A stretch of DNA of 64,000 nt, from NCBI RefSeq assembly GCF_003086775.1, contig NZ_CP026001.1, forward strand, positions 1,204,407 through 1,268,406, in the 5' to 3' direction. A model generated the notes under the pieces. The model did no database searches, had not been told where the DNA came from, and worked only from the letters and a program-made list of their open reading frames with translations. A program made the translations under genes and the position numbers. Source of the stretch: Stenotrophomonas sp. ZAC14D1_NAIMI4_1. Lineage in GTDB: Bacteria > Pseudomonadota > Gammaproteobacteria > Xanthomonadales > Xanthomonadaceae. Shown here piece by piece: positions 53,460 to 60,826 of this stretch (position 1 is its first letter; the number at the start of each line of letters is the position of its first letter).

Positions 53460-54098
53460 TCAGGAACTCCGCAGCACCGGCCGCGCATGCAGGTGGCGCT
53501 TCAGCGACTGCGCGCGCTTGGCGATGGCGCGTACCACGAAGGCCGTGAACAGCAGCGCCGAAGGCACCGCGTACCAGAAGTTGCCGGGCACGCGCTTGAA
53601 GTACGAGTAGGTGAACACCGCAGCGATGATCCACATGCCGGTGACGTGCAGGCGCCGCCATGCGGTGGGCCCCATGCGCCGTGCAATGGCGCGGTGCGAC
53701 GTGATCGCCAGCGCCAGGATGGCCACGTAGCCCACCGTGCCGGGCAGGTTGGCCAGGGCCGAGCGTGCCGGCCAGAACGCCGGGTTGAGGATGCCGAACG
53801 CGGTGATGGCGATGGCATGCAGCAGGTGCGAGAACGCAAACGACAGGCCGATGGTCCGGCGTTCGCGCAGCAGGAAGCGGGTGGTCGGCCCGGGCAGCAG
53901 GCTGGCGAACGATGAAGCGGTGAAGGCCGCCAGGAACAGCAGGAACGAGGTGCGCGCGGTCACCCGGATCGCCGCGCGGCTGCCTTCGGCCACGTCGGCC
54001 TGCAGGGCGAATGCAGCCAGCGCGAAGGCGATCAGCACCACGGCAATGGCCACGAACAGGCGCCAGCCGGACAGGAGGGGAGTATTGGAAACAGCCAT
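53460..54098 (-). CDS. Ferric-reductase-like transmembrane protein
   Basis: A 212-residue membrane protein with about six helices. Conserved-looking histidines lie in FSHLLHAIAITAFG, TSHRAIARRMG and RRLHVTGMW, the pattern of heme-ligating helices in ferric-reductase-like (YedZ/MsrQ-type) domains. No flavin or NAD domain is attached. It is the last gene of the hvf-like operon, 2 bp after hvfC's stop, with GAGG upstream of its start. It may feed electrons to a metal or a modified peptide; that role is inferred from the operon. Confidence 0.78.
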   Translation of the reverse strand: MAVSNTPLLSGWRLFVAIAVVLIAFALAAFALQADVAEGSRAAIRVTARTSFLLFLAAFTASSFASLLPGPTTRFLLRERRTIGLSFAFSHLLHAIAITAFGILNPAFWPARSALANLPGTVGYVAILALAITSHRAIARRMGPTAWRRLHVTGMWIIAAVFTYSYFKRVPGNFWYAVPSALLFTAFVVRAIAKRAQSLKRHLHARPVLRSS

Positions 54099-54100
54099 GA

Positions 54101-54883
54101 TCAAACCTCGGAAGGGAAGTGGGTAGTGCCGGCCGCTGGCCGGCAACTCTGGAAACCGGCCAACACAACCAGCACGCCGGCGGCACACAGCTCGGCCAGC
54201 AGCGGCGCGCAGGCCACGCGCAGCTCTTCCGCAAGCACGCCATGCGCATCGGCCAACGCCTGCAGGGCGTCATCGACGCGCACACCGTCATGGCCGAAGA
54301 CCGAAAGCAGGGCATACGCGAGCGGTGCCAGCGTCTCGACCTGCAGGCGGTAATCGGCCTGGCGGCGCAGCAGCAGGAGCGTGGGCGTCGTGGCCGGTGC
54401 ATCGTCCAGCACCGCGTCCTCGTGCACCGGCCATTGGTAGCCCAGCACACGCACCAGCGGCGACACCGCCAGCAGGTCACTGCCCACCGCCACGTGGTGC
54501 AACGCCTGCCCGGCATCACGCGCTTCGATGTGCAGCGCCTGCTGCGTGCTTTCGAAGTGCGCCAGCTCGGCCGCCCACGCTGGCAGCGCCAGGCTGTCCT
54601 GCAGCGCCAGCCACGCGGCGAACTCGCTGGCGATCTGCGGGAACAACGGGGTATGGCAGGCATGGTGCGCGTAGTAGTGCTCGATCACACCGCGCCAGCG
54701 CGCCGCACCCAGCTGCTGCTGCAGCCGCGGCAGGCAGCCGGCCAGCAGGCTGTCCAGGCTGTCGATGCAGAGGCGGCGATACACCGCCAGCCGGCGCGCA
54801 TCGACGCCCTCGGGTGCGGGCCGGGACGGATCACGCACATGGTCGGCCCAGCGCTGCTGCAGGGTGGCGAGCGACTCAGCCAC
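54101..54883 (-). CDS. hvfC: DUF2063 protein, HvfC-like partner of the MNIO enzyme
   Basis: A 260-residue protein of the DUF2063 (putative DNA-binding) family. It starts with GTG at 54883 ([19 protein letters not shown]) and overlaps the DUF692 stop by 8 bp. The N-terminal helical domain with [17 protein letters not shown] and [12 protein letters not shown] is diagnostic. In related operons it forms a complex with HvfB to help it bind the precursor peptide. The last 14 or so residues ([14 protein letters not shown]) are encoded by a SMAG REP at 54123-54145, so the natural C-terminus was probably altered. Confidence 0.85.
54122..54147. repeat. SMAG/REP inside the 3' end of hvfC
   Basis: GTAGTGCCGGCCGCTGGCCGGCAA. 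It lies within the coding frame of hvfC rather than between genes, so it encodes the end of that protein. Confidence 0.8.
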
Positions 54884-55721
54884 GGGCCACCTCGGGCAGT
54901 CGTACGTCGGCCTGGGCCTGGCGGATCTGCGCGACCTCGGCCAGCAGCTCGGCCAGCGGCGGAAAATTGAAATCACGCTCCAGCAGGGTGGGGCGCACGC
55001 CGACGCGCGCATACGCTTCACGCAGCAGCGCCCAGACCACGCCCTTCACCGGCGCGCCGTGGGTGTCGATCTTGAAGCCATCGTCCTCGTCGAAATGGCC
55101 GGCGACGTGCAGGGACGCAACGCGATGGGCCGGGACGCGGGCGAGGAAATCGAAGGCGTCGTAGTGGTTGTTGCAGGCGTTGACGAAGACATTGTTGACG
55201 TCCAGCAGCAGGTCGCAGTCCGCTTCGGCCAGCACGGCGTTGATGAAATCGATCTCGCTCATGTCCGCGCCAGGCACTGCGTAGTAGGAGATGTTCTCCA
55301 CCGCGATGCGCCGGCCCAGCATGTCCTGCACCTGGGCGATGCGTCCGGCGACGTGGTGCACGGCTTCACTGGTGAACGGCAGCGGCAGCAGGTCGTAGAC
55401 GTGGCCTCCGGCAGCGCAGTAGCTCAGGTGCTCGCTGTACAGCTGCACCTGGTGCAGGTCGAGGAAGGCGCGGGTCTGTGCCAGCAGGGCGCGGTCCAGC
55501 GGGTCCGGGCCGCCCAGCGACAGCGACAGGCCATGGCAGGTCAGGCGATGGCGCTCGCTCAGCTGGCGCAGCGCGGCACCGTGGGCACCGCCGACGCCGA
55601 TCCAGTTGTCGGGCGAGACTTCGAGGAAGTCGATGGCATCGGCCGGCATCGCCAGCAGTTCGTCGATCAGGCCGCGGCGCAGGCCAAGACCAGCGCTGGC
55701 GGAAGGCAGGGGCAGGGACAT
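54876..55721 (-). CDS. hvfB: DUF692 multinuclear iron oxidase (MNIO), HvfB-like
   Basis: A 281-residue DUF692 TIM barrel. The first start ATG with good context (GGAG 8 bp upstream) gives [19 protein letters not shown]. Metal-ligand segments include [49 protein letters not shown] and IDTHGAPV, i.e. the His/Glu/Asp set of multinuclear non-heme iron oxidases. These enzymes oxidise cysteines of a peptide substrate into oxazolone/thioamide or thiooxazole groups. The gene sits directly downstream of a Cys-motif precursor and overlaps the DUF2063 partner, as in hvfABC operons. Confidence 0.92.
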
Positions 55722-55777
55722 GCGCGGTACTCCAGGGCAATGGCGCCGCCACGGGGGCGGCGCCGGAGGGTGGGCCA

Positions 55778-56254
55778 TCAGTCGTTGACGCGGGAGAACA
55801 AGCCCTTCGGCATCGGCTTGCCGTTGGCGGTGTAGACGCTGCGCAGGTAGTCGTGCGCTTCCTGTTCGCTGATGTAGCCGTCGTGGTCGGTGTCGATGCG
55901 GTCGAACTCGGCGGCACGCTTGGCGGCCACGGCGTTGAACTCGGCACGCGAGACCCGGCCGTCGTGGTCACGGTCGGTGCGGGCAAACGAGGCGTCGCCG
56001 CACTTGCCTTCGCCGCACTGGCCTTCGGCCACCTTGGCCTTGCCGGCGGGCTTGCTGCTGGCAGCCTTGTTGGCACCGCACTTGCCTTCGCCGCACTTGC
56101 CTTCAGCGGCGGCGCTCATGGCCACGGCACTGATCGCCAACGGCTGGATCGCGGCGGCCTGGCCGGCCAGCAGCAGGCCCCCGGCCAGGGCGATGCCGAT
56201 GGCACCGATGCGCGGCAGGCGGGAGGCGGTGGTGTTCTTGGTCGAGACGGACAT
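55778..56254 (-). CDS. EGKCG-motif precursor protein fused to EF-hands (HvfA-like)
   Basis: A 158-residue protein with a signal or anchor segment (about 16-50, ending SAVAMSAAA), then two Cys clusters: [10 protein letters not shown] (51-60) and [10 protein letters not shown] (77-86), giving Cys54, 59, 80 and 85. EGKCG is the substrate motif modified by HvfB-type enzymes. Next come two EF-hand loops, [12 protein letters not shown] (94-105) and [12 protein letters not shown] (121-132), each with Asp at positions 1, 3, 5 and Glu/Gln-Glu at 12. Usual HvfA-type precursors are low-complexity and lack EF-hands, so this is a composite. Likely a copper-binding modified peptide carried on a calcium-sensing domain; inferred. 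Confidence 0.85.
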
Positions 56255-56344
56255 GGGATGACTCCTTGGGATTGCACGCCAGGCGTGCGGGATGGACGCC
56301 GCTGCAAGGCGACGGAAAAGAGACGTGGACAGGGATGGAGCGGA

Positions 56345-56989
56345 TCAGGCGCTGCGGCGACGGCGCAGCACGTAGGCCAGCAGCAGAGCAGCGCCGAGCA
56401 GGGCACCACCGAAGCCGATGCCGGGCAGCAGCGCGGCAATGGGCAGCAGCAGCGCGACCAGGCTGACGCCCCAGCCGAGGCCGTCATCGCCGGCGATGGC
56501 GCGTTGCGGGCCGGCCAGCAGGCGGTCCAGGCTGAGTGCGCCGCCACCGTTGAGGATCAGCGGCAGCAGCATGGCCAGGAACAGCAGCGGCAGCTTGAAG
56601 TTGCCATAGCCCTGGTCGGTGATTGCATAGCCCTGCCAGAGTTCGCCCAGGCCGTTCCACTGGTCGGGCCAGTGCACGGCGGCGATGGCAACCACCGTCA
56701 GCACCCAGAAGATGTAGGCCACCGAGCGTGTGGCCAGGCCCAGCAGCAGCATCACCGCGCCCACCAGTTCCAGCCACGTGGCCAGCTGCCAGTTGAGCGA
56801 AGCGGGCAGGGTCGAGAAAGGAAACGGGAAGCGGCCTTCCAGATCGGCGAACCAGTTCTGTCCGCCCAGCTTCTCGCGGCCGGATTCAAAGAACTCCCAG
56901 GCCAGCAGCGTGCGCAGGGCCAGCGGCGAGAGCCAGCGGCCGACGGCATCCAGGCGCGGGGTGTAGAGGGAGGAGGCGGTGCTGATCAT
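56345..56989 (-). CDS. DoxX-family membrane protein (HvfD/BufD-like)
   Basis: A 214-residue protein of the DoxX family with about four to six helices. Typical segments are [16 protein letters not shown] near the N-terminus, [34 protein letters not shown] and a final basic tail RRRRSA. DoxX proteins are regular fourth members of hvf/bufferin operons and may take part in redox balance or metal handling at the membrane. It is the first gene here, 90 bp upstream of the precursor. The ATG at 56989 is taken; longer frame extends into the control region. Confidence 0.85.
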
Positions 56990-58169: not shown

Positions 58170-58715
58170 ATGGCCACGCTTCGCGCCTATACCGTGCCGC
58201 TGTTGCTGGCCCTGCTCGGCGGTGCTGCGCTGCTGCTGGCCTGGCCCAGCCCCGAAGCCGGCGCACAGACCGCCGAGGCCGCACCGGCTGCGGGCTTCAA
58301 CGGCGGCGGGCCGTGGCACAACAGCCCGCCGCTGGCCCTGGAGCAGCTGCGGGGGCAGGTGGTGCTGGTCGAGTTCTGGACCTATGGCTGCAGCAACTGC
58401 CTCAATGTCGCGCCGTACGTGCACCGGTGGCATGCCCGTTATGCACCGAAGGGCCTGCGCGTGATCGGCGTGCACACCCCCGAATTCGCTTATGAGGGAC
58501 TGCAGGGCAACGTGCGCCACGCGATCCACCGCCTCGACATCACCTGGCCGGTGGTGCAGGACAACCAGTACCGCATCTGGAATGCCTGGGGTAACCGGTT
58601 CTGGCCGGCGCTGTACCTGGTCGACCGGCAGGGCAGGGTGGTCTACCGCCATTACGGCGAAGGCGACTATGCACGTACCGAAAGCGAGATCCAGCGCCTG
58701 CTGGCCAGCCCGTGA
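58170..58715 (+). CDS. Exported thioredoxin-like protein
   Basis: A 181-residue TlpA/DipZ-like thioredoxin-fold protein with an N-terminal signal/anchor (about 5-33). The active site FWTYGCSNC carries Cys74 and Cys77 and the cis-Pro loop is FWPALYLV. The unusual CSNC with Asn before the second Cys is seen in this subfamily. It is 3 bp after the hydrolase stop and probably supports disulfide or thioether reduction of exported proteins. It may serve the neighbouring Cys-rich precursor, which is speculation. Confidence 0.87.
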   Translation: MATLRAYTVPLLLALLGGAALLLAWPSPEAGAQTAEAAPAAGFNGGGPWHNSPPLALEQLRGQVVLVEFWTYGCSNCLNVAPYVHRWHARYAPKGLRVIGVHTPEFAYEGLQGNVRHAIHRLDITWPVVQDNQYRIWNAWGNRFWPALYLVDRQGRVVYRHYGEGDYARTESEIQRLLASP

Positions 58716-58775
58716 GCCGCGCTACCATGGCCGCGCCGCGCGGCCTTGTCCTCCGCCGCCATCATCGAGAACGCA

Positions 58776-59512
<737 letters not shown>

Positions 59513-59516
<4 letters not shown>

Positions 59517-60826
59517 ACGCTGCCGCGCGCCGCCTGCCGTGGCCGCGCACGCTGTCCGCGCGCCTGCTGCTGTTGTTGCTGGGCGGGCTGACCCTGGCCC
59601 ACGCACTGTCGTTCGGCCTTCTGTTCTTCGAGCGCTACCAGGCCACGCGCAGCATGATGCTGCGCAACCTGGACGAGGACGTGGCGGTGAGCGTGGCCCT
59701 GCTGGAACACCTGCCAGCGGACCAGCGCCAGGCCTGGGTGCCGCGGCTGGAACGCCGCACCTATCGCTACCTGCTGCGTCCGGCTGCGTCCGGGCCGGCA
59801 CTGGAAACCGGGCGCGCGCGCCAGGTCACCGCCATCATCGATGACAGCCTGGAGCATCGCTATCCGCTGCAGGCACGCCAGGTCGCGCGCCTGCCCGAAC
59901 GTTTCGAGGTGGAGCTGCGCCTGCGCGATGGCACACCGCTGACCATCGAAGTGACCCCGTCCGGCCTGCCGCTGGCGCGCTGGCTGCCGGCCGTGCTGCT
60001 GGTGCAGCTGGCGTTGCTGCTGCTGTGCGCGTGGCTGGCGGTGCGGCTGGCGCTGCGCCCGCTGCAGCAGTTGTCGCACGCGGTCGAGCACCTGCAGCCG
60101 GGCAAGGATGCAGCGGTGCTGCCCGAGGATGGCCCTGCCGAAGTAGGCGCGGCTGCGGCCGCACTCAACGCGCTGCAGGCACGCATCCGCGGCCATGTCA
60201 GCGAGCGCCTGCAGATCCTGGCAGCCATTTCGCACGACCTGCAGACACCGATCACGCGGATGAAGCTGCGCGTGGAAACCCTGCCCGAAGATGCCACCCA
60301 GCAGCGCCTGCTGGACGACCTGGACCACCTCGGCCTACTGGTGCGCGAAGGCGTGGCCTATGCGCGCAGCAGCCATGTGGCAAGCGGTGCACCGATGGCG
60401 ATGGACCTTGCCGCGTTCCTGGCCAGCGTGGTCGGAGATTACGAGGACATGGGCAAGCCGGTGTCCGGCGGTGCGCCGGCGGGGCTGACCGTGCAGACCT
60501 GGCCGCAGCCATTGCGCCGGGTGGTCGGCAACCTGGTGGACAACGCGCTGCGCTATGCCGGCAGCGCCGAGATCGATGCCGGTCGTGATGCTGCCGGCAA
60601 GCCGTGGATCAGCGTGTCTGATCGGGGCCCGGGCATTCCCGAAGACCAGCTGCAGGCGGTGCTGGCGCCCTTCCACCGGCTGGAGAGCTCGCGCAACCGC
60701 GATACCGGCGGTACCGGCCTGGGCCTGGCCATCGCCGTGCAGCTGGCACAGTCGCTGGGCGGTTCGCTGCAGCTGCGCAACCGGGACGGCGGTGGCCTGC
60801 AGGCCGTGCTGCAGTTGCCGGGCTGA
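59513..60826 (+). CDS. Sensor histidine kinase
   Basis: A 437-residue kinase. Two transmembrane helices (about 12-35 and 160-183) flank a small periplasmic sensor of about 125 residues. A HAMP segment (LRPLQQLSHAVEHL) leads to the DHp box AAISHDLQTPITRMK with phosphorylated His241 and the ATPase domain with NLVDNALRYAG, DRGPGIP and GTGLGLAIA. The pair resembles OmpR/EnvZ or KdpDE-like regulators, signal unknown. Confidence 0.95.

Follow-up and report, generated by a model that had tools for sequence, protein, structure and literature searches.

A Stenotrophomonas HvfABCX-family operon whose EGKCG precursor carries a pair of EF-hands

Gene content and precursor structure

We analysed a 64,000-nucleotide stretch (the window) of the 4.70-Mb single-contig genome of Stenotrophomonas sp. 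ZAC14D1_NAIMI4_1 (contig NZ_CP026001.1, positions 1,204,407 to 1,268,406). The window contains an operon encoding, in order of transcription, a DoxX-family membrane protein (HvfX), an HvfA-type precursor in which EGKCG motifs are joined to two EF-hands, an MNIO (DUF692) enzyme (HvfB), its DUF2063 partner (HvfC) and a ferric-reductase-like membrane protein (Table 1). All five genes lie on the minus strand, at the positions given by a first-pass annotation made from the sequence alone, and family models agree with its gene calls. The overlaps mentioned in that annotation are found between hvfB and hvfC (8 nt) and, provided that hvfB starts at its first ATG, between hvfA and hvfB (1 nt), whereas gaps of 2 nt and 90 nt separate hvfC from the ferric-reductase-like gene and doxX from hvfA, respectively. 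An alternative hvfB start at 55721 better fits the domain start. A scan for promoters and terminators found nothing resembling a promoter; of six terminator-like sites, none directly follows the last gene.

Scores above family cut-offs bear out an hvf-type operon with an MNIO enzyme, an HvfC partner and an EF-hand-bearing precursor. The MNIO protein is of the HvfB type (411.3 bits with the HvfB family model NF003818, cut-off 360; 341 bits with MbnB_TglH_ChrH) and aligns to the structures 3BWW and 8HCI, the latter of a DUF692 family protein, and to those of MbnB. HvfC matches DUF2063 and the HvfC family model NF050145 (196.1 bits, cut-off 142), and is related to 3DEE. HvfX matches Pfam DoxX (68.1 bits, E 1e-18) and scores 138 bits with the NCBIfam model of its own family (cut-off 80). 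The precursor scores 36.2 bits with KCGExKCG_twice (NF050137, cut-off 19.5) and exceeds the cut-offs of EF-hand_1, _5, _6 and _7, EF-hand_8 remaining under its own. The ferric-reductase-like protein matches Pfam Ferric_reduct (36.9 bits, cut-off 28) and falls under the MsrQ cut-off (34.7 versus 130 bits). Three His residues, found in FAFSHxxH and in W-x-x-L/V-H, are invariant in 15 aligned homologues of this protein and would, we presume, suit a b-haem membrane protein.

We assign this Stenotrophomonas operon to the HvfABCX (oxazolin/captophorin) family and, within it, to the EF-hand subtype typified by the Pseudomonas aeruginosa calcium sensor EfhP. Both features of the Buf_EGKCG|EF-hand_5 chimaera, or EfhP, type are present, as the EGKCG domain is followed by two C-terminal EF-hands, and the MNIO and DUF2063 genes are adjacent. 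Two other assignments were rejected. The operon had been called bufferin-like, but in the strict sense (Buf1/Buf2) this does not hold: the MNIO protein scores under the bufferin-maturase cut-off (NF050167, 269.9 versus 310 bits), and DUF2282 is absent among the Pfam matches of the precursor. For a methanobactin cluster, the score with TIGR04159 (MbnB) is 37.0 bits against a cut-off of 325.

Table 1. Genes of the operon and elements of the precursor. Positions refer to the window.
Feature	Positions	Strand	Basis
doxX / hvfX, DoxX-family membrane protein, 214 aa	56345..56989	-	Pfam DoxX, NCBIfam HvfX family
hvfA-type precursor with EF-hand pair, 158 aa, EfhP-like	55778..56254	-	NF050137, four EF-hand Pfam models
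Probable Sec signal peptide, residues 1-35, ending in GQAAA (A-x-A site)	56150..56254	-	Sequence and alignment
First Cys element, residues 51-60, Cys54 and Cys59	56075..56104	-	Sequence
Second Cys element, residues 77-86, next to the EF pair, with Cys80 and Cys85	55997..56026	-	Sequence and alignment
EF-hand loop 1, residues 94-105	55940..55975	-	Pfam and loop pattern
EF-hand loop 2, residues 121-132	55859..55894	-	Pfam and loop pattern
hvfB, MNIO (DUF692) enzyme	54876..55778	-	NF003818; alignment to structures
hvfC, DUF2063 / PME-type-1 partner	54101..54883	-	NF050145; start probably GTG at 54883
Ferric-reductase-like membrane protein, 212 aa	53460..54098	-	Pfam Ferric_reduct

The precursor comprises a probable signal peptide, a short leader-like stretch, a first pair of Cys residues, a linker, a second pair, two EF loops spaced 27 residues apart and a tail. 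Both Cys elements have the form EGxCGEGKCG, giving four motifs in all, one of which is EGQCG. The EF loops are canonical and lie where the annotation had set them; their Pfam match (E ~1e-9) excludes chance. The closest named relatives are from Stenotrophomonas (93% identity to an S. maltophilia EA1 protein). Among the matches listed, relatives named P. aeruginosa (P0030, P0032, P0033, P0034, P0036, P0038 and P0096) are 57-61% identical to the precursor, and some listed relatives are named by NCBI as "HvfA family" metallophore or "EF-hand domain-containing protein".

Conservation was assessed in 36 aligned precursors with the same order of elements (alignment A1, hand-picked: the window protein, 23 of 43 C-terminal-type loci and 12 of 120 listed proteins; the start of L004 was shortened). 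Signal peptidases cleave according to an A-x-A rule, and A35, at the end of the probable signal peptide, is nearly invariant (at least 90%); export was judged by eye and from this alignment only. In the second Cys element, E77, G78, C80, G81, E82, G83, C85 and G86 are invariant and the x positions vary, unlike the first element, which is variable or absent. At EF loop positions 6 and 12, all 68 two-loop precursors of the family survey described below have G and E, respectively, though the search pattern, which fixes position 1 as D and restricts positions 3, 5, 6, 8 and 12, permitted other residues. Few changes separate the EF region from that of four relatives (ratio of nonsynonymous to synonymous differences, pN/pS, 0 to 0.27). 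Because of this conservation, we take the EF pair to be a working Ca2+ site. Two AlphaFold models are poor overall (mean predicted local distance difference test, pLDDT, 58.7 and 56.3), and neither returned a match reaching E 0.001 in a comparison with the PDB. In the precursor, nearly all of residues 1-84 have pLDDT <50, and residues 91-140 have block means of 82-91. All that the models support is an EF-hand fold of the EF portion and disorder elsewhere.

EF-hands and neighbouring genes in related clusters

A survey of 149 genomes sampled from the taxonomic family of the window, in which clusters were defined by MNIO matches of at least 57% identity (33 matches at 36-45% were left out), revealed 117 HvfB-type clusters, all of which were examined, the window included. 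Their precursors carry two EF loops in 68 clusters, one loop in 4 (strict pattern) and none in 43; no precursor was found in 2. The fusion is common, as EF-bearing precursors occur in 72 of 117 clusters. It had been presented as unusual, with the proviso that a common, already described fusion would undo the claim. Both apply, since a short EGKCG domain with two EF-hand_5 domains at the C-terminus has been reported (PMC12452194; the cited papers were available as excerpts, to which statements about them refer). An EF-pair profile run against the 43 EF-less precursors gave a best E of 0.7; on this result L204 and L228, which have an unreliable start, and L165, which contains masked bases, were kept as EF-less.

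When mapped on a tree of the 117 enzymes (a quick tree, supported by Shimodaira-Hasegawa-like approximate likelihood ratio tests only), the EF label changes 11 times, at least 6 of the changes being forced by well-supported branches, against 34.9 changes in shuffles. The EF domain was repeatedly gained or lost, yet is clustered on the tree. Both forms coexist in the genome of the window. A second hvf cluster (G000:C1, ~1,590,000; L169 6348-6785 (-), L002 2333-2755 (-)) likewise encodes an EGKCG precursor, an MNIO enzyme (63% identical), HvfC and DoxX, but it features no EF-hands, has no ferric-reductase-like gene that we could find, and has DoxX at the opposite end of the cluster.

The position of the EF pair also varies. 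In 58 of the 72 EF-bearing precursors, the EF pair has Cys motifs on either side (internal type; for instance L118, L120, L150 and L163 within L115-L230, as well as L046-L065); the motifs occur only before it in 13 (C-terminal type, window included) and only after it in 1. The usual EF-bearing form in this family thus features an internal EF pair, and not the published arrangement, worded as "fused to the C-terminus" (PMC12452194). Among the matches listed in open-licence full texts, we found no description of the internal arrangement, which may stand in supplementary files. In a separate collection of 80 loci obtained from named records, the C-terminal Cys pair is invariant in the aligned internal-type sequences (A2, 20 of 22 loci).

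DoxX, HvfC, MNIO and ferric-reductase-like genes were scored as neighbours. For DoxX and the ferric-reductase-like gene, the whole fetched stretch was considered, ~5.5 kb on each side and less at contig ends, so that some absences may be false. DoxX is present in 12 of 13 C-terminal-type and 1 of 58 internal-type clusters. It also occurs in 21 of the 43 clusters without EF-hands; in two of these 21 (L198, L208) it lies on the other strand, 1.5-2 kb off. The ferric-reductase-like gene was found in 7 of 117 clusters, all of the C-terminal type. In raw counts, this corresponds to 7 of 72 EF-bearing versus 0 of 43 EF-less clusters (p 0.044) or, among clusters with DoxX, to 7 of 13 versus 0 of 21 (Fisher p 0.0003). 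An association of the gene with EF-bearing precursors is nevertheless not supported, as kinship correction leaves only two independent pairs on well-supported branches. In the 80-locus collection, the gene accompanies six C-terminal-type, two internal-type and one EF-less locus (L078, where it was not matched by a stricter profile search). Ferric-reductase genes are also reported for a small number of EGKCG clusters (PMC12452194).

EF loops occur in 65 precursors of the 80-locus collection. Of these, 27, some of them close to the end of a contig, have no MNIO gene within the flank that was fetched. Of these orphans, 22, from 21 genomes, were checked, and an MNIO gene was found elsewhere in each of the 21. 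Such co-presence agrees with a co-occurrence table in PMC12452194 and allows for modification in trans, an argument that is weak because the base rate of MNIO genes in such genomes was uncontrolled.

Several further loci are worth recording. Many EF/EGKCG genes without an MNIO gene in the fetched flank, some with two Cys motifs only, lie in L008-L041, mostly from Pseudomonas. L073 (4851-5792 (+), from a Bacteroidales metagenome-assembled genome) encodes an EF-rich protein with four loops by pattern and four G-x-C-G motifs, and has no MNIO gene in the fetched flank. An EGKCG/MNIO/HvfC/DoxX cluster is also present in L068, from a record entitled Bacillus subtilis SK7B5, the assembly of which is possibly contaminated or mislabelled. 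In the window, a redoxin-like protein (Pfam; 58170-58715 (+)) is encoded just past the divergent neighbour of the operon, and is followed by an apparent response regulator and histidine kinase (58746-60826 (+)), judged by eye. A redox or metal link of these genes with the operon is possible.

Proposed maturation and role of the precursor

HvfA-type modification, for which the annotation had assumed oxazolone/thioamide chemistry, has been reassigned to 5-thiooxazole, with the expected loss of about 4 Da per modified Cys unchanged (PMC13097082, PMC13419390). HvfBC acts far better on full-length than on signal-less HvfA (-20.3 versus -2.5 Da; PMC13097082, PMC13419390), which places modification before export. 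FonBC modified a substrate with two repeats but left one with a single repeat unmodified, and copper is generally bound by the characterised 5-thiooxazole peptides (PMC13097082). The invariance of the second, double Cys element fits the FonBC requirement. EfhP (PA4107), the best-studied relative, combines four EGKCG repeats with two EF-hands, is predicted to be periplasmic, binds Ca2+ with a dissociation constant (Kd) of 13.7 µM, undergoes a Ca2+-dependent conformational change and mediates Ca2+ responses; its gene adjoins PA4106 (DUF692) and PA4105 (DUF2063) (PMC4053335, PMC9132961, PMC11559002).

By analogy with these systems, we consider it fairly probable that the precursor is modified in the cytosol and exported, and that its EF-hands are then folded by periplasmic Ca2+, yielding a periplasmic, copper-binding and calcium-responsive protein. 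HvfB and HvfC would recognise the full-length precursor, with the signal peptide as leader, and would oxidise the four Cys residues to 5-thiooxazoles, as we infer from HvfBC biochemistry. Because cytosolic Ca2+ is presumably far below a micromolar Kd, the EF pair would be unfolded, or at least Ca2+-free, at this stage. Following Sec export and cleavage at the conserved A-x-A site, the pair would be folded by periplasmic Ca2+. In the product, a disordered thiooxazole arm that binds Cu(I) would be attached to a tail folded by Ca2+, and the protein would be able to buffer copper and to hold Ca2+ or report on it. Probable membrane redox partners are HvfX and the ferric-reductase-like protein, which might provide, for example, electrons for Cu(I).

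Several lines of evidence favour this proposal: the curated cut-offs exceeded by HvfB, HvfC, HvfX and KCGExKCG; the relatives named P. aeruginosa, taken with the gene context, Ca2+ binding and EGKCG repeats of EfhP; the preference of HvfBC for full-length HvfA and its 5-thiooxazole product; the invariant double Cys element read with the two-repeat requirement of FonBC; the conserved G and E of the EF loops, low pN/pS values and AlphaFold confidence pattern; and the 22 checked orphans, all in genomes with an MNIO gene. A coupling of copper capture to calcium is plausible, given that EfhP binds Ca2+ and mediates Ca2+ responses. For the internal type, in which the Cys motifs on either side of the EF pair could all carry thiooxazoles, a more speculative and rather unlikely reading is that Ca2+-triggered folding after export draws the two Cys arms together, such that the affinity of a copper site, or its geometry, would depend on calcium. 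Such a protein would be a calcium-gated metallophore, of which the window precursor would be a one-armed version.

Other observations weigh against the proposal. The precursor falls far under the cut-off of the HvfA equivalog model NF050188 (31.1 versus 95 bits), and by sequence is better regarded as family-like than as oxazolin itself. It lacks the QGY element present between the signal peptide and the Cys region (56105-56149 (-)) in most aligned relatives, as do L003, L004, P0003, P0014 and P0016. As the orphan copies show, the gene of the EF protein need not lie next to those of the enzymes. EfhP phenotypes concern calcium, iron, virulence and stress, copper not being among them in the available excerpts (PMC4053335, PMC9132961, PMC11559002). 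Cu-loaded fontiphorin aggregated, so that copper may be bound stochastically instead of at specific sites (PMC13097082, PMC13419390). For an EGKCG cluster of Microbulbifer, a role in copper protection has been called into question (PMC12538549).

The alternative that fares best, although it is on the unlikely side, is that the EF pair is a structural device only, compatible with export and folding after secretion to protect or anchor the modified arm, with no calcium signalling. The varying order of the EF pair and Cys motifs, the repeated gain and loss of the EF domain, which suits a modular accessory, and the 43 clusters devoid of it are consistent with this explanation; the conserved Ca2+-ligating loops and the conformational change and phenotypes of EfhP are not.

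A doubtful, but not negligible, alternative is that the protein is primarily a periplasmic Ca2+ sensor akin to EfhP, with the modified Cys arm acting as a metal-sensing input rather than as a copper sink, and with joint Ca2+ and metal status relayed to a signalling partner. Loss of EfhP abolished intracellular Ca2+ homeostasis, EfhP controls Ca2+-dependent transcription of iron-uptake genes, and its authors proposed that the EGKCG repeats serve dual Ca2+ and Fe sensing (PMC4053335, PMC9132961, PMC11559002). Moreover, several of the orphan precursors carry just two G-x-C-G motifs and yet retain both EF loops. A signalling partner was not identified, the neighbours scored being the DoxX, HvfC, MNIO and ferric-reductase-like genes. 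The general copper binding of characterised 5-thiooxazole peptides (PMC13097082) argues in the other direction.

A tethered product, also raised by the annotation, in which the hydrophobic segment at the N-terminus stays uncleaved and anchors the protein in the membrane, is improbable. Antoine et al. mention a predicted transmembrane helix in this chimaera type (PMC12452194), and in 2014 TMHMM predicted EfhP to span the membrane, SignalP 4.0 giving a low probability of a signal peptide. However, SignalP 5.0 later predicted a signal peptide for EfhP (PMC4053335, PMC9132961, PMC11559002), and in the aligned precursors a small-x-Ala site with the nearly invariant A35 lies right after the hydrophobic segment. 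A relict operon, the Cys motifs of which are no longer modified, is very improbable: the missing QGY element and the EGQCG variant point to it, but the MNIO, HvfC and HvfX genes are intact and their products score above cut-off, the second Cys element is invariant apart from its x positions, and FonBC tolerates all single Ala variants preceding the core (PMC13097082).

Comparison with known systems

The pairing of EF-hands with a copper peptide is real and already described; among the matches listed in open-licence full texts, fusions of EF-hands to MNIO precursors are described only in PMC12452194 and in the EfhP work. The window operon, ordinary for its kind, ties together calcium signalling, as known for EfhP, and MNIO-made copper peptides. 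Since Ca2+ binding by EfhP was measured, as far as the excerpts show, on a signal-less protein produced in E. coli from efhP alone (PMC4053335, PMC9132961, PMC11559002), modified EfhP may behave differently from the measured protein. Should calcium tune copper binding, notably in the internal form, this would exemplify a metallophore of the ribosomally synthesized and post-translationally modified peptide (RiPP) class controlled by a second metal; the internal form is the part worth following.

The window precursor has the architecture of the chimaera type of PMC12452194, from which it does not differ in any essential respect, and is a further member of it. Like EfhP, it has a predicted signal peptide, EGKCG repeats, two EF-hands and neighbouring MNIO and DUF2063 genes. 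In contrast to EfhP, it carries no QGY/QGL-type element ahead of the Cys region, and its cluster features an additional upstream doxX/hvfX gene and a downstream ferric-reductase-like gene, neither of which is mentioned for EfhP in the excerpts. The hvfABCX oxazolin cluster of nontypeable Haemophilus influenzae and the fontiphorin/captophorin systems share HvfB, HvfC, HvfX and EGKCG double motifs with the window, but the excerpts mention no EF-hands in HvfA or FonA, unlike the window precursor.

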